This document shows, in pieces, positions 18,002-51,088 of a stretch of 54,645 nt of DNA (positions within the stretch are counted from its first letter, which is position 1; each line of letters starts with the position of its first letter). The stretch is from positions 1 through 54,645 of IMG/VR virus record IMGVR_UViG_3300035698_003486, one strand, 5' to 3'. The stretch comes from a virus. The notes under the pieces are model-generated. The model saw nothing but the letters and a program-made list of their open reading frames with translations. It was not told the DNA's origin and ran no database searches. Position numbers and translations under genes: made by a program.

Positions 18002-18255
18002 TCTGTTCTCCTTAGGTGATTGAGGATAGCGTCCACGGCGGCGGTCGCGTAGTCCCTATGGCTCACGTCCATGTCATGCACGTTGTCGATGCCATAGAGC
18101 GCGGCTGCGATCAGCGCCTCACGGTCCACGGGAGGGGCGGCGGCGATCATGGCGACATAGACAGCCTCAAAGTCTCTGCCGTATTCACGTTCGGTCGATC
18201 CGGCATTCCACATCGCCTCTGTCGCCTCGCGCGGCACCAGCACTAGGTCAGACAT
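17998..18255 (-). CDS. Small hypothetical protein of the GC-rich island
   Basis: 85 aa from ATG 18255 (sequence MSDLVLVPRE). It resembles short phage/prophage proteins with LVPREATEAMW and YVAMIAAAPP. GC content is much higher than in the surrounding operon. The longer frame to 18366 overlaps the neighbour and is rejected. Function unknown. Confidence 0.65.
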   Translation of the reverse strand: MSDLVLVPREATEAMWNAGSTEREYGRDFEAVYVAMIAAAPPVDREALIAAALYGIDNVHDMDVSHRDYATAAVDAILNHLRRTE

Positions 18256-18466
18256 CAGTGGTCTCCTTATGCAGGGTTTTAGCTCGCATCTTGGGTGCGG
18301 TGTCAGTGACACCGCCAGTCCCGCCGCAATTGTCGCACGTCTCGCCGACAACACCGGGCGTGTCATCCGGTACCGGGCCGGGGCCTACGAACGTCATTGG
18401 GTACGCGGCGCGGCGCACGATTTCGCCGGAACCGTTGCATCGGTAACAATCGCCAACCCACTCCAT
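18248..18466 (-). CDS. Small zinc-finger protein (DnaJ-type CxxCxGxG repeats)
   Basis: 72 aa. Two CxxC pairs with glycine pattern, CYRCNGSGE and CDNCGGTGG, as in the DnaJ cysteine-rich domain, giving a single zinc site. GC-rich, in the island. Probably a small accessory protein; target unknown. Confidence 0.65.
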   Translation of the reverse strand: MEWVGDCYRCNGSGEIVRRAAYPMTFVGPGPVPDDTPGVVGETCDNCGGTGGVTDTAPKMRAKTLHKETTDV

Positions 18467-18506: not shown

Positions 18507-19217
18507 TCACTCACGGCAGTTCGCCAGTGTCGAGCAGGCGCACAAGAACGTGGGTCTGCGCGTCCCGTGCAGCGGCCCATGCTGCGTCCGTGCAGCCCAT
18601 GCGGCCCATGCTACGTCCCCTGCGGCAGCCCGTGCAGCGGCCCATGCTGCGTCCCGTGCAGCCCATGCGGCCCATGCTACGTCCCCTGCGGCAGCCCATG
18701 CGGCCCATGCTACGACCCCTGCGGCAGCCCGTGCAGCGGTTGTGGGGGACCGTGCGGCCCATGCGGCGGACCGTGCGGTGGCCATGTCGCTGGCGGGGCG
18801 ATCACCGTTGGCCACAGCGCGGGCGACCTCGATACAGTCGCGAGGCCGCGTGTCGTGCGGGTGCAGCACCTCGAACAGCGGGAGCACCTGTTCGGCACAC
18901 CAGCAGGCGAACAAGCGCGCATTTCGCTCGTTCCAGTGTTCGCAGCGCCGGATCAAGCGGGCGTCGCTTACGACGACCTTATCGGCACATTCGATCACGA
19001 CGCCATTGACCTCGGACAGCCAGATTACCGGGCCGAGCCAGTGAATCAGATCGCCCCCTCGGCAGAGGTGATAGCCGTTTTCACATGGCTCAATCGGCCC
19101 CTTGATGGGCGGCATCCATTCGCCAGGCTGGTCGCCGGTGGGCAGGTTCCACTGCGCATCACCGCCGTTGCAGGAACGGCCATTGGCGTCGAGGATTTTG
19201 AAATATCGTGTGGTCAT
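18507..19217 (-). CDS. DUF7666-like protein with Ala/Trp repeat tail, apparent frameshift
   Basis: 236 aa from ATG 19217 (ATGA overlap upstream). N-terminal about 120 aa (MTTRYFKILD ... ENGYHLCRGGDLIHWLGPVIWLSEVNG ... LIRRCEHWNERNARLFACWCAEQVL) match a widespread phage/actinobacterial family, followed by an Ala-Trp-Ala repeat tail. About 70% GC, foreign to this genome. Near 18,588 a repeat copy reads CGTCCGTG where other copies read CGTCCCGTG: one base is missing. After it the frame leaves the ARDAAWAAA repeat and ends RTQHGPLHG...; the restored frame would end DAQTHVLVRLLDTGELP with a stop at 18,511. Confidence 0.6.
   Translation of the reverse strand: MTTRYFKILDANGRSCNGGDAQWNLPTGDQPGEWMPPIKGPIEPCENGYHLCRGGDLIHWLGPVIWLSEVNGVVIECADKVVVSDARLIRRCEHWNERNARLFACWCAEQVLPLFEVLHPHDTRPRDCIEVARAVANGDRPASDMATARSAAWAARSPTTAARAAAGVVAWAAWAAAGDVAWAAWAARDAAWAAARAAAGDVAWAAWAARTQHGPLHGTRRPTFLCACSTLANCRE
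18570..18745. repeat. GC-rich imperfect tandem repeats
   Basis: Several imperfect copies of units such as GCGGCCCATGCTACGTCCCC and GTGCAGCGGCCCATGCTGCG, encoding the Ala/Trp-rich tail of the minus-strand gene. Typical of slippage-prone coding repeats. Confidence 0.8.
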
Positions 19218-29840: not shown

Positions 29841-29952
29841 TTCTTGTCCATTTCTTGAGGGCTTCACGTTTCTTGTTAAGGATAACTTTCTTGCGGTATT
29901 GACGCAAAGCTAATACTCGCCCTATCCTAGCAGCAGCATCCCTTGTTCTCAT
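29803..29952 (-). CDS. Small very basic protein
   Basis: 49 aa with about 17 Arg/Lys (ALRQYRKKVILNKKREALKKW). ATG 29952 follows GAGG by 4 nt and overlaps the previous gene by 26 bp; its end overlaps the cyclotransferase gene. Could bind nucleic acid. Supported only by the open frame, SD and fit in a gap. Confidence 0.45.
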   Translation of the reverse strand: MRTRDAAARIGRVLALRQYRKKVILNKKREALKKWTRNAQRIRLRHPQE

Positions 29953-36343: not shown

Positions 36344-36372
36344 ATCCTACACCGCCGGGCCGAGCCTGTCAA
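36344..36372 (-). promoter_or_regulatory. Promoter of long minus-strand operon
   Basis: Minus strand TTGACA (36372-36367), 17-bp GC-rich spacer, TAGGAT (36349-36344). Lies about 43 bp before the first ATG at 36301. The surrounding 36,300-36,510 region is non-coding, GC-rich and separates divergent operons. Confidence 0.65.
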
Positions 36373-36510: not shown

Positions 36511-36640
36511 CGTACGCTCTCTCTCTCCCTCGTGGGAAATTAAGGTGTGGTACATTAGGTAATGTGGCCCCGGTGGCGGCGCGGCAGGCCAAACCCCATT
36601 TGTGTGAGGCAGGGCAAGCCCGCCCCGCTATTAGGGAGTA
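36511..36640 (+). promoter_or_regulatory. Repeated leader element, copy 1
   Basis: CTCTCTCTCT (about 36,517), then CCCCGGTGGC (36568-36577), exactly 17 nt, then CCCAT (36595) and a later GGGC. The same order occurs at 39,018 and 39,533. TGGCC...GGCCA and GGGC-AA-GCCC can form hairpins. Followed by an SD and ATG 36645. Confidence 0.6.
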
Positions 36641-36644
36641 CGTA

Positions 36645-36890
36645 ATGATGTTTGATAAGAGCTTCACCTACCCAAAGTACAGCCTATTCAGCGAAATGCG
36701 AAAAGAGATTCGCAAGATGCAGAAGATGGGCGAGTATTTTGTGGTGCCTGCTTGGCAAGTTATGGCCTATGCAGGTGTCCGTTCTTCGGCGTACATTGCT
36801 GCTGTGTACGAATGCAAGAAAGTTTCCACAAGGAAGCAGCCTGATGGCACGCTTCGTGTCTATTTCCGGGAGGAAAGAAAATGCAAGTAG
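36645..36890 (+). CDS. Hypothetical protein
   Basis: 81 aa from ATG 36645 (AGGGAG at 7 nt). Longer frame to 36507 runs through the leader element and is rejected. Basic, helix-rich: MRKEIRKMQKMGEYFVVPAWQVMAYAGVRSSAYIAAVYECKK, resembling a small winged-helix or ribbon DNA-binding protein, but unproven. Confidence 0.6.
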   Translation: MMFDKSFTYPKYSLFSEMRKEIRKMQKMGEYFVVPAWQVMAYAGVRSSAYIAAVYECKKVSTRKQPDGTLRVYFREERKCK

Positions 36891-37153
36891 TCGGTACGGC
36901 TGGCAAGTTCAAGTATGTCAGGCCCGGTGGTTCCCTGTCGATCAGTTCCTTCCAGACGAGGGAGGAAGCTGAGGAAATTGGGGCCAAGATGGAGGCTTTG
37001 ATGGATGAGGAGTACTTGACGAAGATTCTGGGATTGCGTAAGGATGATCCCAGAAATGCTGCGGTCTTCGCCAAGTATCCCTTGAAGAAGGTTGAGAAGG
37101 TGAAGGCCAAGGTGAAGTACCGCTTTGGCTGGTTTGTAGTGGGAGAGGGTTAA
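36881..37153 (+). CDS. Hypothetical protein
   Basis: 90 aa, basic C-terminus (KKVEKVKAKVKYRFGWFVV). Ends in TAATG with the next gene. No motif recognised. Confidence 0.55.
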   Translation: MQVVGTAGKFKYVRPGGSLSISSFQTREEAEEIGAKMEALMDEEYLTKILGLRKDDPRNAAVFAKYPLKKVEKVKAKVKYRFGWFVVGEG

Positions 37154-37332
37154 TGCAGATCACGACAAGTGAGTCGGTAACGACCACAGTGACGGTTACG
37201 CTGCCGCCGTCTGTGGTGGAGTTGATTCGGAAGCAGCACACTTTGACTGATGCCATGGAGGTGCTGAGGATGCGGTATCCTGATGGCGGCTTTCGGAGCC
37301 TATACGAGACGGTTAAGGCCCTGAGGGGCTGA
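37153..37332 (+). CDS. Small hypothetical protein
   Basis: 59 aa; starts in TAATG. Thr-rich beta N-terminus (TTTVTVTLPPSVVELIRK) then helices, with VVELIRKQHTLTDAMEVLRMR; the layout recalls ribbon-helix-helix proteins. Too short for confident assignment. Confidence 0.5.
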   Translation: MQITTSESVTTTVTVTLPPSVVELIRKQHTLTDAMEVLRMRYPDGGFRSLYETVKALRG

Positions 37333-37396
37333 GTGGTGGTCCTGAGCACGACTTGAAAAGGCTCGCATTTCAACACTAGTGTCAAGGAGACACAAA

Positions 37397-37615
37397 ATGC
37401 CTGTCATTCAGAATAAGAATATCCGCAACGGCCTCGATGCCATCGGATTTGGGCATAAGGCCCATGAGATGAGTGAAGATGAGGGCTTTGCCCGTCTGGG
37501 AAGTGCTTTCCAGTTGGCCAGTAAGGGAAATGCACGTGTTGTGCAGACTCCTGCTGAGTACAAGAAGGGCAAGATGGTGCCCAAGGGCATGAAGATCATC
37601 TATCGGGTGAAATGA
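37397..37615 (+). CDS. Small hypothetical protein
   Basis: 72 aa from ATG 37397 with AAGGAG at 7 nt. Basic (pI high by eye), KKGKMVPKGMKIIYRVK at the end. Function unknown. Confidence 0.55.
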   Translation: MPVIQNKNIRNGLDAIGFGHKAHEMSEDEGFARLGSAFQLASKGNARVVQTPAEYKKGKMVPKGMKIIYRVK

Positions 37616-37620
37616 AATAA

Positions 37621-37695
37621 ATGAGCGATCACACACTTCTCTGGATCATTGTTATGGGGGTCGCCTTTATTGTCGGCTTTCTCGTATCCAGATGA
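37621..37695 (+). CDS. 24-aa membrane peptide
   Basis: Short polar N-terminus then LLWIIVMGVAFIVGFLV, one membrane segment. Overlaps the next ATG (ATGA). Confidence 0.45.
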   Translation: MSDHTLLWIIVMGVAFIVGFLVSR

Positions 37696-37796
37696 CACGC
37701 CGCAGAAGGCTTGAAGATTTGGAGCTTAGGTGGTACGAGTGGGCACTTCTAGTGTTCGCTTGTGCTGCCTTCGGCTTCATACTTAATTTCATCTAA
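37692..37796 (+). CDS. 34-aa membrane peptide
   Basis: Basic N-terminus (TRRRRLEDLELRW) then one membrane segment (ALLVFACAAFGFILNFI). ATGA overlap with the preceding peptide gene; the pair mirrors that at 25,487-25,674. Confidence 0.45.
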   Translation: MTRRRRLEDLELRWYEWALLVFACAAFGFILNFI

Positions 37797-37807
37797 AGGG
37801 GATGTAA

Positions 37808-37996
37808 ATGCACAAGTACCATGTTGGTCAAGTAGTTGTTGATGGGATGGGGGACCGTATGAGAATTACGGGGCTGTTCCAGAAGGATGAAGTGTATATT
37901 GCTGCATGTGTTGAGAAGGTGTGGTGCAGTGACAAGAAGAAGGGCTTGCTGTACCCCATGAATGATGCAAGGAAACTGGCCAATGTTAAGGGCTAG
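37808..37996 (+). CDS. Small hypothetical protein
   Basis: 62 aa, SD AAGGGG. Small beta-barrel-like pattern (YHVGQVVVDGMGDRMRITGLFQKDEVYIAACVE). Function unknown. Confidence 0.55.
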   Translation: MHKYHVGQVVVDGMGDRMRITGLFQKDEVYIAACVEKVWCSDKKKGLLYPMNDARKLANVKG

Positions 37997-38225
37997 TTAC
38001 AAGGTGCCCGGCTTTACTGGGTACATGGGCCAGACCTTCACACAGGAATTGCGGCATATCAATGAGAATGGCGCACCTGAGGCCTTGAGGGATAGTCTGC
38101 ACAGTGTCTCCAACACCATCTTCGAGATGGCTGGATGCGACAAGGTGAAGTTCTGGAATCACAATGATGTACTTGTGGCTGTTGCCACGAGGCAAATCAC
38201 AGTCAAAATGGAGATGGTACAATGA
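37983..38225 (+). CDS. Small hypothetical protein
   Basis: 80 aa from ATG 37983, overlapping the previous gene by 14 bp; longer frame from 37962 possible. Ends in ATGA overlap with the next gene. Function unknown. Confidence 0.5.
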   Translation: MLRASYKVPGFTGYMGQTFTQELRHINENGAPEALRDSLHSVSNTIFEMAGCDKVKFWNHNDVLVAVATRQITVKMEMVQ

Positions 38226-38998
38226 CGCAAGTTCTGAAGTTTGAGACGGTGGCCCGCAATGCCATGGCGGCTCTCTTTGAAGGCAAGTTGGGTATTCAGT
38301 TGGGGGTTGATGAGTGCCTCTATGAGTACACCAAAGAGGGCAAGGTAGTGGGCCACTGTGCTATTGGTAGCTCATTGAATGAGGCGACAATGAATGCTAT
38401 GCGCTCGCCCTTTGTTGGTGAGGGTCCCGATATGATGGAACAGCCATTGTCGTATCTTTGGATCAATACGATTTCTGCGAGTGACGAGGACAAGCCGAAG
38501 TTGGCGAAGTTGCAGTCCTACCACGACTGTCTTGTCACGAGTGATACGCCCGTTGAGGTGAAGGTGGAGAAGATGCGGGATTACTTGAGGGGAGTGTTGG
38601 GTACTCAGGTGATTACTTGGGAGGAATTTTTGAAGGCCAACAAAGAGGCATTGTTTGATGGCCGCTTGGCACTCATGCATGAAGAGTACGAAGAGTGCAG
38701 TTACACTTATGAAGGTAGTAAGGCACGGTGCGCTGTCGGTACTGTCTTGACTGACGATACCATCATGAAGATGGATAGTTCAGCGGCAGATGAGGACAAC
38801 ATGAAGAATTGCCCTATTACTGGAGATGTGGTTGCAATGCTTGAGAAGAGAGGCTTTGTGGCCTTCGAGAATGACAGGGTGAGGGACAGGATTATACTGT
38901 TGCAGAAGATGCATGACACTCTGTTGCAGAATAGTGTGCTGTCAACCTCTGACAAGAGGATGATGTTCGAGAGCCTCTTGCAGGAAGTGGAGTACTAA
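38222..38998 (+). CDS. CAIG-family protein, tandem two-module
   Basis: 258 aa made of two diverged halves. Module 1: C-LYEYTKEGKVVGHCAIGSSL ... KLQSYHDCL. Module 2: C-SYTYEGSKARCAVGTVL ... LQKMHDTLL. Each has C-x-Y, [RH]CA[IV]G and LQ-x2-HD at similar spacing; the single module at 30,247-30,612 (minus strand) has the same. Function unknown; the invariant C and HD could form a metal or catalytic site. Confidence 0.65.
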   Translation: MTQVLKFETVARNAMAALFEGKLGIQLGVDECLYEYTKEGKVVGHCAIGSSLNEATMNAMRSPFVGEGPDMMEQPLSYLWINTISASDEDKPKLAKLQSYHDCLVTSDTPVEVKVEKMRDYLRGVLGTQVITWEEFLKANKEALFDGRLALMHEEYEECSYTYEGSKARCAVGTVLTDDTIMKMDSSAADEDNMKNCPITGDVVAMLEKRGFVAFENDRVRDRIILLQKMHDTLLQNSVLSTSDKRMMFESLLQEVEY

Positions 38999-39017
38999 CG
39001 CTTAACTTATCGAAGCC

Positions 39018-39111
39018 CGTTCTCTCTCTGGTAATGTGGGTGTGAGGGTGCCCCGGTGGCAATTTAGCCGGGGTATCCCCATATCTTGTGGGACGGCGAC
39101 TAAACCCTAAC
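39018..39111 (+). promoter_or_regulatory. Repeated leader element, copy 2
   Basis: TCTCTCTCTGG (39021-39031), CCCCGGTGGC (39051-39060), 17 nt, CCCAT (39078). CCCCGG pairs with CCGGGG (hairpin at 39051-39075), and CCC...GGG forms a second stem. Starts 20 bp after the stop of the CAIG gene and precedes ATG 39124. Confidence 0.65.
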
Positions 39112-39123
39112 AACAGAGTTATC

Positions 39124-39450
39124 ATGAAAAACGCAACATGCTACATTACTGATGGTTTTGGCTTTCGGGCTGTTACTGACTATGAGTTGTTTTCGGGAAT
39201 TGACAAGAGGAAAGATGGCCTGCTTGTCAGTGTTGTGGCCTTGAAAGAGCCTAATGGACAGGTGATGGTGCTGACAAGTGGGATTCATGCCAGTAAGATT
39301 GCGGCAGTCAAGTGGGCTGCATTGACTTGCCAGAAGATTCGCAAGGAGGGTTTCCGGGATGATGGGACTTTTATTGACGTGCCTGATTATTATAGTCAGG
39401 TGATGTCCGTTAGTCCACATCTTGGGGCTATCTATGGATGGAAGGACTAA
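39124..39450 (+). CDS. Hypothetical protein
   Basis: 108 aa from ATG 39124. Beta-alpha layout (CYITDGFGFRAVTDY...IHASKIAAVKWAALTCQKI). Between leader-element copies 2 and 3. Function unknown. Confidence 0.55.
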   Translation: MKNATCYITDGFGFRAVTDYELFSGIDKRKDGLLVSVVALKEPNGQVMVLTSGIHASKIAAVKWAALTCQKIRKEGFRDDGTFIDVPDYYSQVMSVSPHLGAIYGWKD

Positions 39451-39532
39451 ATATAGAGGACTTAGGGAGAGATAAAGTAAGTAATTGCTTGCTTTACTGT
39501 GGAGTGTGGCACTATGTCGAAGGGCTAGTGCT

Positions 39533-39620
39533 CATTCTCTCTCTGGAAAGGGGACCATGGGACTGCCCCGGTGGCAATCTGCCGCCAAGATGCCCATATC
39601 TGTTGAGAGCCGGGCAATCA
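39533..39620 (+). promoter_or_regulatory. Repeated leader element, copy 3
   Basis: TTCTCTCTCTGG (39535-39546), CCCCGGTGGC (39566-39575), 17 nt, CCCAT (39593), with GGTGGC/GCCGCC and GCCC/GGGC stems. Precedes ATG 39661. The 82 bp before it (39451-39532) hold no gene. Confidence 0.65.
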
Positions 39621-39660
39621 TGTTCGGCTTGAATGGCCATTGGCCAGAGGAACTGTCGTT

Positions 39661-39969
39661 ATGACAAAGTATCGTATGGTTATCGAAGGCGAGATGTCCG
39701 ATCTTCGGGTCGCCCATTTTAGCAAGATGCGTGACGGCAACAACAAGTGGATTGACGACAAGAGCAAGCCGCTTGACCCGCCGATGATCAACCTGCCCTA
39801 TCAGGCTCAAGGCGTCCTCACCTTCAGTGATGGGACCGAGCGTCCGGTCTTCAAAAAGGGCAACAATCTGGTCATCCCCTTGACTGACAATCCGGACAGG
39901 GGCACTAAGGCGCAGACCGGCACGGTTGATCCCAGCCTTGCCGCCTTCGCCGTTGCCAAGCGCAAGTAA
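39661..39969 (+). CDS. Hypothetical protein
   Basis: 102 aa from ATG 39661 (SD GAGGAA). Higher GC than neighbours. YRMVIEGEMSDLRVAHFSK and VLTFSDGTERPVFKKGNNLVIPL suggest a small beta protein. Function unknown. Confidence 0.6.
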   Translation: MTKYRMVIEGEMSDLRVAHFSKMRDGNNKWIDDKSKPLDPPMINLPYQAQGVLTFSDGTERPVFKKGNNLVIPLTDNPDRGTKAQTGTVDPSLAAFAVAKRK

Positions 39970-39984
39970 GGGGCATTTAGTGGA

Positions 39985-40068
39985 GCGCCATCTAGCAGCA
40001 ATGTTAGGTGGCGTTCTGCTAAGTGCCTGATATTAAAGGCATTTATTCCCCACCTTGAGAGGGGTGGG
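39985..40068 (+). terminator. Cluster of three terminator-like hairpins
   Basis: GCGCCATCT/AGGTGGCGT (39985-40014); TGCCT/AGGCA followed by TTTATT (40024-40046); CCCACC/GGTGGG (40049-40068) followed by a short purine-A run. They end the plus-strand operon. The second hairpin is also one copy of the 21-bp repeat family. Confidence 0.6.
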
Positions 40069-40149
40069 TGGAAAAATAGATGCGCTCTTAACTCCTAAAA
40101 GTAGGTGTCCAGCGATACTACCTTCTTCCCATATAAGTTAAGCACTTTC

Positions 40150-40179
40150 TTGACAACCTGCCAAATTCCATGATACAAT
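40150..40179 (+). promoter_or_regulatory. Sigma70-type promoter
   Basis: TTGACA (40150-40155), 18-bp spacer, TACAAT (40174-40179), 35 bp before ATG 40214. Confidence 0.7.
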
Positions 40180-40213
40180 ATAAGTGAAGCGTTGCAATTG
40201 AAAGGAAAACACA

Positions 40214-40621
40214 ATGCCCACAGCTATAAGTGAAGCGCCCCAATTACCCCTATCTGAAATCTTTGAGAAGTACGGACGCATCTACGTCTACAACTTTAAC
40301 AGGGACGTGCCCCACATCTCCATTGAAATCTCCCACCTAGACCCCCGCCTCCTAGAGTACAGTGGCACCATCAATCGCCACCGTTGGGTCTGCCGCACCA
40401 TCCGCCCCATGCGCACCTTCCTACAGAAGTACGGACGTGGCCACCCTCGCACCTCTGTGGCCCTAGCCTTCCTCAAGAAGAAGGACATGCCCTACACCAT
40501 CTGTCACCGCCTCAAGTACACCCCTGAGCAGCGAGCCGAACTCGTAGCCCTAGCCCACGCCGTTGATGACGCTCCCCTCCGCCCCAGTCTTGCGCTAAGT
40601 AGCGCACAGCTAACCCCTTGA
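40214..40621 (+). CDS. Hypothetical basic protein next to repeat region
   Basis: 135 aa, SD AAAGGA. Strong C in third codon position, unlike the neighbours. Arg/His-rich (NRHRWVCRTIRPMRTFLQKYGRGHPRTSVALAFLKKK), with a C-terminal helix (TPEQRAELVALAHAV). Its own promoter, basic nature and place beside direct repeats fit a DNA-binding or replication-initiation role, but no known fold is recognised. Confidence 0.6.
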   Translation: MPTAISEAPQLPLSEIFEKYGRIYVYNFNRDVPHISIEISHLDPRLLEYSGTINRHRWVCRTIRPMRTFLQKYGRGHPRTSVALAFLKKKDMPYTICHRLKYTPEQRAELVALAHAVDDAPLRPSLALSSAQLTP

Positions 40622-40641
40622 AACTAAAGGCTAATTAGGCG

Positions 40642-40909
40642 CTCCCTCACTAAAGTCACTAAAAACTCTTACAAACAGCACTGAAGAAACCCGCGTAACC
40701 CCTTGATAACATTGAACAATAAAAAAGTTAGTGAGTTTAGTGAGTTTAGTGACGATGCTTTTGTTTCTCTCTAGTATACTCTTACCTTCTTTTTACTAAG
40801 AACATAGCAAAAGTTCCCTCACTACCCACACTAAGCGCACGGTATTCAACAATATCAAGCACTTAGCTACCAATTCCTCAGTGTAGATGCAGTGAGTTTA
40901 GTGAGGGAG
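40642..40909. repeat. TTTAGTGAG repeats (iteron-like) with 19-bp inverted repeat
   Basis: AGTGAGTTTAGTGAGGGAG at 40891-40909 recurs inverted at 40642-40660 with one mismatch. Between them GTTAGTGAGTTTAGTGAG plus TTTAGTGACG (40727-40754) and weaker copies at 40815-40835. No gene overlaps. Candidate replication origin or regulator array. Confidence 0.65.
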
Positions 40910-41091
40910 TGTCTAATAACCCTTATACATCAAGAACTTAGCAAGCGGGGGAAACATCCCAATGCCGGAGGTTAAAGCCCGTCCCCTAAGCCCTTGATAT
41001 TAAAGGAAAAAGCACTGCTAACCTAAAGCCCCTCCTTAAGAGTCACTCATTTATTTTCCATAGGGGGATGGCGGCGGAAGCTCTATTTCTT

Positions 41092-47230: not shown

Positions 47231-48746
47231 GGGGGCCGAACAAGTCCAGCTTCTGAGTCTACTAAGACAGAAGCTTTATGTCAAGGCCCAAGAAGACCTC
47301 CACACCTTTGTAAAGGTGATGGCCCCCATGATCCTCCCCGAAGGCGACTTTGTGGACGGGAGGCACATCCGCCTCCTATGTAAGGAACTCATGGCCGTGG
47401 AGCGCGGCGATGTAACTCGCCTGATGATCTTCCTGTCCCCCGGCTCCACCAAGTCCAAGCTGTGTTCTGTCCTCTTCCCGGCGTGGTACTACGGGCGTCA
47501 CGCGTCGCGTTATATCTTAGGTGTGAGCCACAGCGTCGAGCTTGCTGAGAAATTTTCCGCCGAAATCCGGGACCTCGTGGACTCTCCTATATATAGGGAC
47601 ATCTTTCCCGAGACCAAAATCTCCAAGGAAAAGCGGGCCGTCAAAAGATGGCAGACCACAGAAAAAGGTGAGTACCTCGCGGCGGGCGCGGGCAAGCAGA
47701 TCGCGGGCTTCCGTGGGCACGTAGGCATTATTGATGATGCTGTCTCGGAGCAGACTGCCTACTCGAAGACTGAGCGCACCAAGATCAATGACTGGTACGC
47801 GCCGGGCTTTCGTACACGTATCCTACCGGGCGGGGCCGTCATCATTATTAATACGCGCTGGCATCTCAACGACTTGTCAGGCTTTCTACTATCCCTTGCA
47901 GACGAGAACGCTCGCGCAGATCAGTGGAAAGTCATACGTATCCCAGCTATCCTAGATCATGAATCCGCAGAACTCCTAGGCCTTGAAGAAGGCGGTTCTT
48001 ATTGGCCCGAGTACTGGCCCCTTGATACCCTCCTAGACACCAAGGAATCTACCCCTGCGCCTAAGTGGAACGCCCTCTATATGCAGACCCCTACCTCAGA
48101 AGAGGGGACCATCTTCAATCCCAAGTGGTTCTCGGACTGGGAGAAGGACAAGCCACCCAAGTGTGAATACATCCTCATGTCGGCAGATACGGCCTTCAAG
48201 GATAATCAGCGCAGCGATTACAGTGCCATTACAATCTGGGGAGTCTATCGCAAATCTTCGCACCTTACTGATGGGCGTGAAGTACTTATTCCCCAACTCG
48301 TTCTACTGTACGCTGTAAAGGGGCGGTGGCAATTCCCCGACCTATGCAAGATGGTACAGGGCCTTTACGACAAGTGGCAGCCAGATGGTGTTATGATTGA
48401 AGACAAGGCTTCAGGTCAATCTCTTATTCAAGAGATGAGGCGCAGGGGCTTTCCTATCCTAGTCTATTCATCCAAGGACTCCAAGGAGTTACGCGCCCAT
48501 GCCATCACCCCCCATGTCCAATCTGGCTACGTATGGGTGCCTAAGCGCAAGGCATGGTGTGATGAGTTCATTACAGAGGTGTGCTCTTTCCCCTATGCAG
48601 AGCATGATGACTATGTAGACACCATGACACAGGCCGTCCAATACTTACGTGACAATTGGGCTATCGAACATCCTGACGATCAGAAGGCGGAACCTCAACG
48701 GAAGAGTAGGAAGCGTAAATCCTATTGGTCTAACTTAGTTGCATAA
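47217..48746 (+). CDS. terL: Terminase large subunit
   Basis: 509 aa from ATG 47217 (overlaps terS by 14 bp). ATPase: P-loop-like LSPGSTKSKL and Walker B GIIDDAV. RNase H-like nuclease: ADTAFKDNQRSDYSAI with metal-binding Asp, MIEDKASG, and EHDDYVD near the C-terminus. It cuts and pumps DNA into proheads. The upstream in-frame start at 47127 is inside terS and rejected. Confidence 0.93.
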   Translation: MTQNKGAEQVQLLSLLRQKLYVKAQEDLHTFVKVMAPMILPEGDFVDGRHIRLLCKELMAVERGDVTRLMIFLSPGSTKSKLCSVLFPAWYYGRHASRYILGVSHSVELAEKFSAEIRDLVDSPIYRDIFPETKISKEKRAVKRWQTTEKGEYLAAGAGKQIAGFRGHVGIIDDAVSEQTAYSKTERTKINDWYAPGFRTRILPGGAVIIINTRWHLNDLSGFLLSLADENARADQWKVIRIPAILDHESAELLGLEEGGSYWPEYWPLDTLLDTKESTPAPKWNALYMQTPTSEEGTIFNPKWFSDWEKDKPPKCEYILMSADTAFKDNQRSDYSAITIWGVYRKSSHLTDGREVLIPQLVLLYAVKGRWQFPDLCKMVQGLYDKWQPDGVMIEDKASGQSLIQEMRRRGFPILVYSSKDSKELRAHAITPHVQSGYVWVPKRKAWCDEFITEVCSFPYAEHDDYVDTMTQAVQYLRDNWAIEHPDDQKAEPQRKSRKRKSYWSNLVA

Positions 48747-48772: not shown

Positions 48773-51088
48773 ATGGCATTAATTCCAAACTTACGCGAGC
48801 GTGTAATCTCTGAAGAGATTGACCAGAACTTTGAAGAGGTCAATGTTGAACTTGAGGGAGAAGAGCCGCTTGAAGACGAAATCATTGAAGAGCCTATTGA
48901 CTTCTTCGAGAATCTTGCTGAAGTTCTTGACGAGGACATTCTCAATGATATCGCAGAAGACGTAATTGAGAACTTTGACAATGATAAAGAGTCGCGCGCC
49001 AAATGGGAACGGACTATCCTCAAGGGAATGGACCTTCTAGGTCTGGACATTGAAGATAAGTCTCAACCCTTCGAGGGCGCATGTTCAGCGACACATCCCC
49101 TCATTATGGAGAATGCCGTCAAGTTTCAGGCTAAAGCCGCGCAGGAACTCTTACCCGCCAAAGGACCAGTGCGCGCAGAAGTTCTAGGAAAGAAGACCCC
49201 AGAGAAAGAAGCTCAGGCACTTCGAGTACAGACCTTCATGAATTACCAACTTACAGAAGAGATGGAAGAGTACTATGACGACTTTGAATCCATGCTCCTG
49301 TACACTTCTATCATTGGTAGCGCATTCCGCAAAATCCATTTTGATGACACCCTTACTAGGCCTGTCTCAGAATTCATTGGTATTGACCAGTTCGTAGTAT
49401 CCAACTATGCGCGTGACCTTAAGAGGGCACCTCGCTACACTCAAATTATGCACTTCTCGCCTAACGACTTGCGCAAGGACATCGCTTCGGGCTTCTACAA
49501 GGACATTGAACTTGGTGACCCTGAGAAGATTAATGAAGACAGTATTTCCTTCAAGATGTACGAGACCTTTGGCATCGGTACAGGCTACACCTTAAAGGAT
49601 GACATCTATGAAGTACTTGAGCAGCATGTAGACCTCTTCATTGAGGACGACGAATTCGGTCGTGAGGACGGCATTGCTGTCCCATACATTGTAACTCTTG
49701 ACAAGACGACGCGCCAAATCCTTTCCATTAGACGGAACTGGGATGAGGAAGACCCCTCCTATACCAAGAAGGAGTGGTTCATTCACTACAAGTTCGTTCC
49801 GGGCTTTGGCTTCTACGGCCTAGGCTTCATTCATCTAGTCGGTAACTTTCAGATGACCCTCACGGCCATCCTGCGCTCCCTCGTAGATGCAGGTCAGTTC
49901 GCTAACCTCCAAGGGGGCTTCAAGGCTAAGGGCCTTCGAGTTGTTGGCGGGGATGATCCACTTTCCCCCGGCGAATGGCGAGACGTTGAGGCCCAGAATA
50001 TGGACCTGTCCAAGGCCCTGATGCCTGTCCCTTATAAGGAGCCGTCAGCTACCCTTATGAACATGCTCTCCTTTATGGATGGGCGTGGTCAGAAATTTGC
50101 GGATGCTACAGAAGCAGTAATCTCCGATGCCTCCAACTACGGCCCCGTGGGCACTACTATGGCCCTCATTGAGCAGAGCACCAAGTTCTTCTCAGGTGTC
50201 CATAAGAGAATGCACGCGGCACAGCGCAAAGAGTTCAAGATTCTTGCGCGTATCAATAGTGAATTCCTCTCTGACAACTATCCCTACGAAGTAGTTAACG
50301 GCGACAATGTAATTGCCCGCGAAGACTTTACAGGCGTAAGTGTTATTCCTGTTGCGGACCCCAATATCACTTCAAAGGCAGAGCGCCTTGCGCAGGCCCA
50401 CATGAAGTTCACTATTGCACAGCAGATGCCGCAATACCATGATATGCCTGCAGTAATCCGCCGCATCTACGTGGCAATGGATGAAGATAACATTGAGGAA
50501 CTTATGGCCAAGAAGGCAGAACCCAAGCCACAGGACCCCATCTCTGACATTATGGCAGCTACCAAGGGGGCACCTATCCAAGCCTTCCAAGGACAGAACC
50601 ATGACGCGCACATCAAAGTAAAGAAGGCGTGGCTTGAAGACCCAATGGGGGGTTCCAATCCGGCAATGCAGACTGCAGGCCCAATCGTCGCAGCGAATAT
50701 CCAAGAACATCTTGTAATGCGTTGGCAGGAAATGATGGGTGGTCTCGTACAGACTGGAGGGGCAACTGATCCTCAGACTGCTGAAATGATTATGGGACAG
50801 GCCGCCGAAGAAGTTCTTGCCTTCAATAAGATGCACGCTAACGAAGAGCAGATGACCGATCAGCAACTCAAGAACCGCGAACTGGACATCAAGGAAGGCG
50901 AACTCCTGCGTAAGTGGCAGGAAATGCTGGGCAAGCAATCTGCTGAAGATCGTGCTCACTCCATCAAGGAATTTGAAGCTCTCCTTAAAGAGGATGCCAT
51001 GAACCTTGACGGCCTCAAGGCCACAGCGGACATCCTTTCTAGAGAGGAAGTGGCAAACATTTCCGCTAAAGCTAAGAGTTCCAAGTGA
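48773..51088 (+). CDS. Portal protein (P22-type)
   Basis: 771 aa. Acidic N-terminal tail (residues 1-75), ERTILKGMDLLG, QPFEGACSATHPLIMENAVKFQAKAAQELLPAKGPVRAEVLG, RRNWDEEDP and the downstream KDLVDAGQ-like stretch SLVDAGQFANLQGG are typical of P22-like portals of podoviruses. C-terminal coiled-coil region (about 690-771). Forms the dodecameric ring for DNA passage. The stop overlaps the next GTG start. Confidence 0.9.
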   Translation: MALIPNLRERVISEEIDQNFEEVNVELEGEEPLEDEIIEEPIDFFENLAEVLDEDILNDIAEDVIENFDNDKESRAKWERTILKGMDLLGLDIEDKSQPFEGACSATHPLIMENAVKFQAKAAQELLPAKGPVRAEVLGKKTPEKEAQALRVQTFMNYQLTEEMEEYYDDFESMLLYTSIIGSAFRKIHFDDTLTRPVSEFIGIDQFVVSNYARDLKRAPRYTQIMHFSPNDLRKDIASGFYKDIELGDPEKINEDSISFKMYETFGIGTGYTLKDDIYEVLEQHVDLFIEDDEFGREDGIAVPYIVTLDKTTRQILSIRRNWDEEDPSYTKKEWFIHYKFVPGFGFYGLGFIHLVGNFQMTLTAILRSLVDAGQFANLQGGFKAKGLRVVGGDDPLSPGEWRDVEAQNMDLSKALMPVPYKEPSATLMNMLSFMDGRGQKFADATEAVISDASNYGPVGTTMALIEQSTKFFSGVHKRMHAAQRKEFKILARINSEFLSDNYPYEVVNGDNVIAREDFTGVSVIPVADPNITSKAERLAQAHMKFTIAQQMPQYHDMPAVIRRIYVAMDEDNIEELMAKKAEPKPQDPISDIMAATKGAPIQAFQGQNHDAHIKVKKAWLEDPMGGSNPAMQTAGPIVAANIQEHLVMRWQEMMGGLVQTGGATDPQTAEMIMGQAAEEVLAFNKMHANEEQMTDQQLKNRELDIKEGELLRKWQEMLGKQSAEDRAHSIKEFEALLKEDAMNLDGLKATADILSREEVANISAKAKSSK

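Follow-up and report, generated by a model that had tools for sequence, protein, structure and literature searches.

A three-block element repeated ahead of three small genes of a virus, and its possible role as a phage-specific bipartite promoter or operator

The stretch of viral DNA analyzed here (IMG/VR record IMGVR_UViG_3300035698_003486, positions 1 to 54,645, G000 among our genomes and hereafter the window) is a viral record 54,645 bases long in which the genes from 36301 down to ~10128 form one leftward block and those from 36645 to 39969 form a rightward cluster of small genes. At three places in this region a set of three conserved sequence blocks recurs, and it is this element, and what it may do, that concerns us. 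The original prediction placed its copies at 36,511, 39,018 and 39,533; all three are indeed present, with block 1 beginning a few bases further on in each case. The blocks, and the genes that follow them, are these:

36518..36526, + strand: copy 1, block 1, TCTCTCTCT, in a pyrimidine tract at 36517-36531
36567..36577, + strand: copy 1, block 2, GCCCCGGTGGC
36595..36603, + strand: copy 1, block 3, CCCATTTGT (CCCATNTNT); exact CCCCATTT from 36594
36645..36890, + strand: small gene downstream of copy 1, 81 aa, no family found
39021..39029, + strand: copy 2, block 1, TCTCTCTCT
39050..39060, + strand: copy 2, block 2, GCCCCGGTGGC
39078..39086, + strand: copy 2, block 3, CCCATATCT; exact CCCCATAT from 39077
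39124..39450, + strand: small gene downstream of copy 2, 108 aa, no family and no phage relative found
39536..39544, + strand: copy 3, block 1, TCTCTCTCT
39565..39575, + strand: copy 3, block 2, GCCCCGGTGGC
39593..39601, + strand: copy 3, block 3, CCCATATCT; GCCCATAT from 39592
39661..39969, + strand: small gene downstream of copy 3, 102 aa, no family and no phage relative found

The only occurrences of TCTCTCTCT on either strand of the window are at 36518, 39021 and 39536, and CCCCGGTGGC lies at 36568, 39051 and 39566, with no other mismatch-free occurrence in the window; the two are found three times each, always on the + strand and always paired. The G preceding CCCCGGTGGC is invariant as well, which extends the core block to GCCCCGGTGGC, and the downstream block is CCCATNTNT, so that all three copies share a core of GCCCCGGTGGC, 17 free bases and CCCATNTNT. 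This bears out the claim that CCCAT follows CCCCGGTGGC after exactly 17 nt. The wider claim of constant spacing holds for that gap and not for the distance from the TCTC tract of block 1 to the CCCCGG of block 2, which is 41, 21 and 21 nt in copies 1, 2 and 3. Copies 2 and 3 can be aligned without gaps, at 76% identity over 49 nt, with free variation outside the blocks, and copy 2 starts no more than 25 nt from the end of the previous gene. Each copy does stand ahead of a different small gene, as had been proposed, at distances from CCCAT to the ATG of 45 nt (36645), 41 nt (39124) and 63 nt (39661) rather than the 29-45 nt given.

The three-block motif is real. A matrix built from the copies scores them at 43-51 bits, which is high by construction; the next best site in the window reaches 10.6 bits, and shuffled windows reach at most 8.5. 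Beyond the shared 10-mer, 11 further columns are invariant, against at most seven for any 10-mer found three times in 20 shuffled windows. The motif is probably a regulatory cassette, and the general idea that different small genes are each preceded by a copy of one cis-regulatory element, which underlay all the options originally offered (riboswitch-like regulator, put-like antiterminator, phage promoter or operator), fits what we find; the riboswitch among them is unsupported, as set out below.

We suggest, with a probability of a little under one half (about 0.48), that the element is a phage-specific bipartite promoter or operator cassette acting as DNA. A bipartite protein-DNA site or promoter fits because the gap between blocks 2 and 3 is fixed at 17 nt and its sequence is free, and because the copies share a single orientation and lie ahead of genes. 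In such a cassette, block 2 (GCCCCGGTGGC) and block 3 (CCCATNTNT) would occupy the position of a -35-type element or activator box and that of a -10-type element, separated by the fixed 17-bp spacer, and block 1 (TCTCTCTCT) would serve as an accessory upstream site. Block 1 lies 20 bp further upstream in copy 1, or about two turns of the helix, which is suggestive but a single case. Each copy would then either initiate the transcript of the small gene or genes that follow it or be the point at which a factor of the phage or host regulates that transcription, giving leaders of roughly 35-60 nt. The promoter or operator role, the start sites and the recognition by a phage- or host-encoded factor are what we infer from this arrangement.

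No known promoter type was recognized at the copies. No sigma70 site (TTGACA- and TATAAT-like hexamers 16-18 nt apart) was found at or between them, the best scores in the leader regions being 7-8 out of 12. Sites of this type occur nearby, as TTGACA-18-TACAAT at 40150 before a neighboring gene and at 36372 on the - strand, facing the leftward block. The sigma32 (RpoH) consensus, CTTGAA-N13-17-CCCCATNT (PMC4263515), comes closer. With its preceding base, block 3 reads CCCCATTT in copy 1, CCCCATAT in copy 2 and GCCCATAT in copy 3, so that the sigma32 -10 element CCCCATNT is exact and rightly placed in copies 1 and 2 and differs at one base in copy 3; the end of block 2 lies 16 nt upstream of it, within the spacing range of the consensus (PMC4263515). 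A canonical sigma32 promoter was nevertheless rejected as half a match, since the -10 element agrees and the -35 element does not.

Several observations weigh against a promoter or operator. The -35 position agrees with CTTGAA at no more than 2-3 of six bases, GGTGGC itself at two; total sigma32-like scores of 9-10 out of 13 at the copies are common elsewhere in the window, where CCCCATNT itself occurs 16 times against 8.4 expected; GC-rich blocks are unusual for a region that has to melt; only three copies are known, all in one virus; and no sigma factor, RNA polymerase or activator gene was recognized among the window proteins scanned, many of which have no family.

The original prediction read constant spacing and variable intervening bases as a sign of selection on RNA structure. 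Our results do not support this: no fold common to the copies was found, their folding energies are ordinary, and no Rfam family matches, a search of that database returning nothing at the copies at either gathering or relaxed E-value thresholds. The hairpins named for each copy (TGGCC/GGCCA in copy 1, CCCCGG/CCGGGG in copy 2, GGTGGC/GCCGCC in copy 3) can each be drawn singly; they use different bases and registers in each copy, and each is broken in the other copies. Hairpins of this sort are expected by chance because the conserved block is GC-rich. When the variable bases were shuffled, helices that involve the conserved block and have at least five or at least six pairs, G-U included, appeared in 99% and 78% of trials, and only the 12-pair helix of copy 2 (G-U counted) stands out. 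The copy-2, copy-3 and copy-1 helices were formed in 58%, 62% and 73% of cells, which does not convincingly exceed slid or shuffled controls. In the copy-1 helix, two outer pairs vary on both strands in every copy and three inner pairs are broken; 36 of 500 shuffles equaled it. Single leaders fold with z-scores of -1.1 to -2.1 into shapes that differ among the three, and joint alifold folds of two or three copies gave z-scores of -0.64 to +0.96 against column shuffles, no better than controls, the value depending on the position chosen for the 20-nt gap in copy 1.

There is thus no convincing covariation among the three copies, which is half of what had been named as telling against the RNA reading, the other half being a promoter mapped onto the blocks. 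These structure tests are weak with three sequences, and they fail to support a shared fold rather than disprove one. A shared RNA fold as the target of selection is not supported, and the DNA-level reading is favored over an RNA one, though not proven, because no shared RNA fold was found, conservation is at the level of nucleotides, the gap between blocks 2 and 3 is fixed, and the copies stand ahead of separate genes.

The main rival of a DNA site is a protein-bound RNA element like the nut or put sites of phages lambda and HK022, in which a boxA-like block 1 and a boxB-like hairpin formed by block 2 would together bring in a phage or Nus factor acting in antitermination or in the control of translation; we consider it somewhat unlikely. 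The only pairing available to all copies is indeed a GCC-CCGGU-GGC hairpin within block 2, whose 3-bp stem with loop CCGGU closes in all three (4 bp in copies 2 and 3), and copy 2 has in addition its strong 12-pair helix. The stem is invariant, so covariation neither supports nor refutes it. In copies 1 and 2 block 1 has a CG before it and reads CGCTCTCT and CGTTCTCT, which we take to be similar to boxA. As in lambda nut and HK022 put, a pyrimidine-rich box lies 5' of a small hairpin at the start of gene clusters; here, however, the distance between box and hairpin, which is short in nut sites, is not constant (21-41 nt), and the additional CCCATNTNT at its fixed 17-nt gap has no role in nut or put. 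There is a precedent for multiple sites in the Gp17 antiterminator of mEp021-type phages, which acts on three nut sites (PMC11893012). Against an RNA element of this type stand the lack of any larger shared fold or Rfam match and of a recognizable antitermination gene among the proteins scanned, beyond a weak match (E = 0.019) of a 72-aa protein at 18248-18466 to Q-like proteins.

Other explanations fare worse. A recent duplication or a mobile regulatory cassette, for example of the PeSL kind, with no present function beyond that of a promoter or recombination target, would agree with the gapless relationship of copies 2 and 3 and with the composite promoter-terminator cassettes known to mediate gene shuffling in T4-like phages (as cited in PMC4503421), but invariant blocks among nearly random intervening bases are unlike a passive recent duplication, and no terminator stem with a U run accompanies the copies; we regard it as quite improbable. 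We hold it very improbable that the leaders are riboswitches or other ligand- or temperature-sensing elements, including ones in which the TCTC tract sequesters the Shine-Dalgarno (SD) sequence. In every copy the SD region (AGGGAG, CAGAG, CCAGAGG) is able to pair with the tract, and the minimum-energy folds of copies 1 and 3 use such pairs; yet among 54 genes the strength of this pairing ranks 4, 10 and 16, which is nothing special, the accessibility of SD and start ranks 5, 24 and 38, so that these are not consistently hidden, and neither a conserved aptamer-like fold nor an Rfam match was found. Very improbable as well, finally, is the idea that the blocks encode part of short leader peptides with a shared PRW[Q/R]-x5-PI motif. 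Read in the frame CCC-CGG-TGG, blocks 2 and 3 contain no stop codon in any copy, and the resulting open reading frame ends on the start of the next gene in copy 1 (TAATG) and copy 3 (ATGA). Copy 2, however, has no in-frame ATG, and there is no good SD sequence. Between copies 2 and 3 this frame has 10 identical, 1 synonymous and 18 non-synonymous codons, and degenerate codon positions are fixed only inside the blocks (with one exception, GGT/GGA). The degenerate block positions are unchanged while non-synonymous change is free elsewhere, and the constraint is therefore on nucleotides rather than on a peptide; it is on this codon pattern that the leader peptide was rejected.

Among known systems, a bipartite promoter or operator finds its nearest likeness in the bipartite or activator-dependent (middle-type) promoters of phages, which likewise recur several times on one strand, each time before a different gene, with conserved boxes at fixed spacing and a free spacer; as far as we can tell, however, neither box fits a known consensus. 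The stoperator of Cluster A mycobacteriophages is a 13-bp site, GGTGG(C/A)TGTCAAG (PMC5712189). Stoperators resemble the element as asymmetric, intergenic GGTGGC sites in one orientation; in contrast, only the first six bases agree, the following bases being variable in the window, and there are three sites rather than dozens. The PeSL (promoter-stem-loop) cassettes of T4-like phages, which join a promoter to a stem-loop terminator, are also regulatory modules that recur before small orphan genes, whereas the copies here have neither sigma70 promoter nor terminator stem.

Relatives of the virus could be recognized by protein and not by the element. Its terminase (47328-48746) and portal (48773-51088) proteins are 37-41% identical to those of Pelagibacter phages HTVC023P and HTVC027P, phage DSL-LC04 and Roseobacter phages CRP-901 and CRP-902, the terminase identity to the CRP phages being 30-31%. 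Seven proteins of the rightward cluster gave no match to PHROGs, four proteins downstream of the copies none by tblastn against 50,697 phage records, and the region bearing the copies none by BLAST against phages. Three specific pattern scans of IMG/VR returned few matches, and those inspected look like chance occurrences, lying in long open frames or coding sequence without a second copy; the 15 pattern matches in GTDB genomes are at chance level, and none resembles the element. A core sequence model that recovers the three copies of the window found no match in 34 related phage records (five named genomes among them; most of the 34 are fragments).

Two of these relatives do show something comparable. 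In HTVC023P (L372:13000-16161) and DSL-LC04 (L373:4080-6620), small genes lying between the terminase genes have in front of them repeated leaders whose sequence is not that of the element; these are phage-specific and close to the SD sequence, CAACTAACAAA..GGAG-like at four genes and ACATACAG..GAGAAA-like at four. They are like the element in being a phage-specific repeat ahead of several small genes, and unlike it in being short and directly at the SD sequence (CAACTAACAAA..GGAG; ACATACAGGAGAAA), with sigma70-like promoters before some genes (e.g., 13014 and 16083 in HTVC023P; 6688, - strand, in DSL-LC04), although the count of such sites in HTVC023P is only slightly above its AT-rich background. 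Repeated phage-private leaders are thus plausibly a habit of the group rather than proven homology, and their presence in two relatives counts in favor of a bipartite promoter or operator. When the intergenic regions of relatives were compared with themselves, AT-rich noise dominated, and only one repeat was taken further: in a related phage record of similar GC content (G018; L353/L354), an exact 20-nt repeat, CGTATCAGATAAATCCCATA, which contains CCCATA, lies at 29932 and 33292, at 40-60 nt before two open frames of the - strand.

Other features of the window may be recorded here. A near-perfect palindrome, TAAAGTAAGTAATTGCTTGCTTTA, occupies 39473-39496, between the gene end at 39450 and copy 3, and a long imperfect hairpin at 39971-40028, immediately following the gene that ends the rightward cluster, is likely a 3' end structure; its match to mir-876 was dismissed as chance, and the Rfam matches in the window above the gathering score are three tRNAs only. 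A 21-nt repeat, CTAAGTGCTTGATATTAAAGG, occurs five times in 40019-41006 (+ strand at 40019, 40610 and 40986; - strand at 40846 and 40921), with a tandem array of TTAGTGAGT amid these at 40728; the repeats lie partly in non-coding sequence and look like iterons or operators. A 33/66-nt tandem repeat array at 18564-18739 overlaps a + strand open frame of 346 aa that lies opposite genes of the - strand.

With one virus, three copies and no relatives found, the general importance of the element is limited. It is unlikely, in our estimate, to prove a new class of phage transcription-control site with the core GCCCCGGTGGC-N17-CCCATNTNT, recognized by a phage or host factor, or a new kind of RNA element read by a phage RNA-binding protein. 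Should the element be a promoter, it would add a second promoter class to the host-like sigma70 sites and point to a transcription factor among the orphan genes; an RNA site would amount to a new regulator; and on either reading it provides an exact sequence handle for finding the factor.

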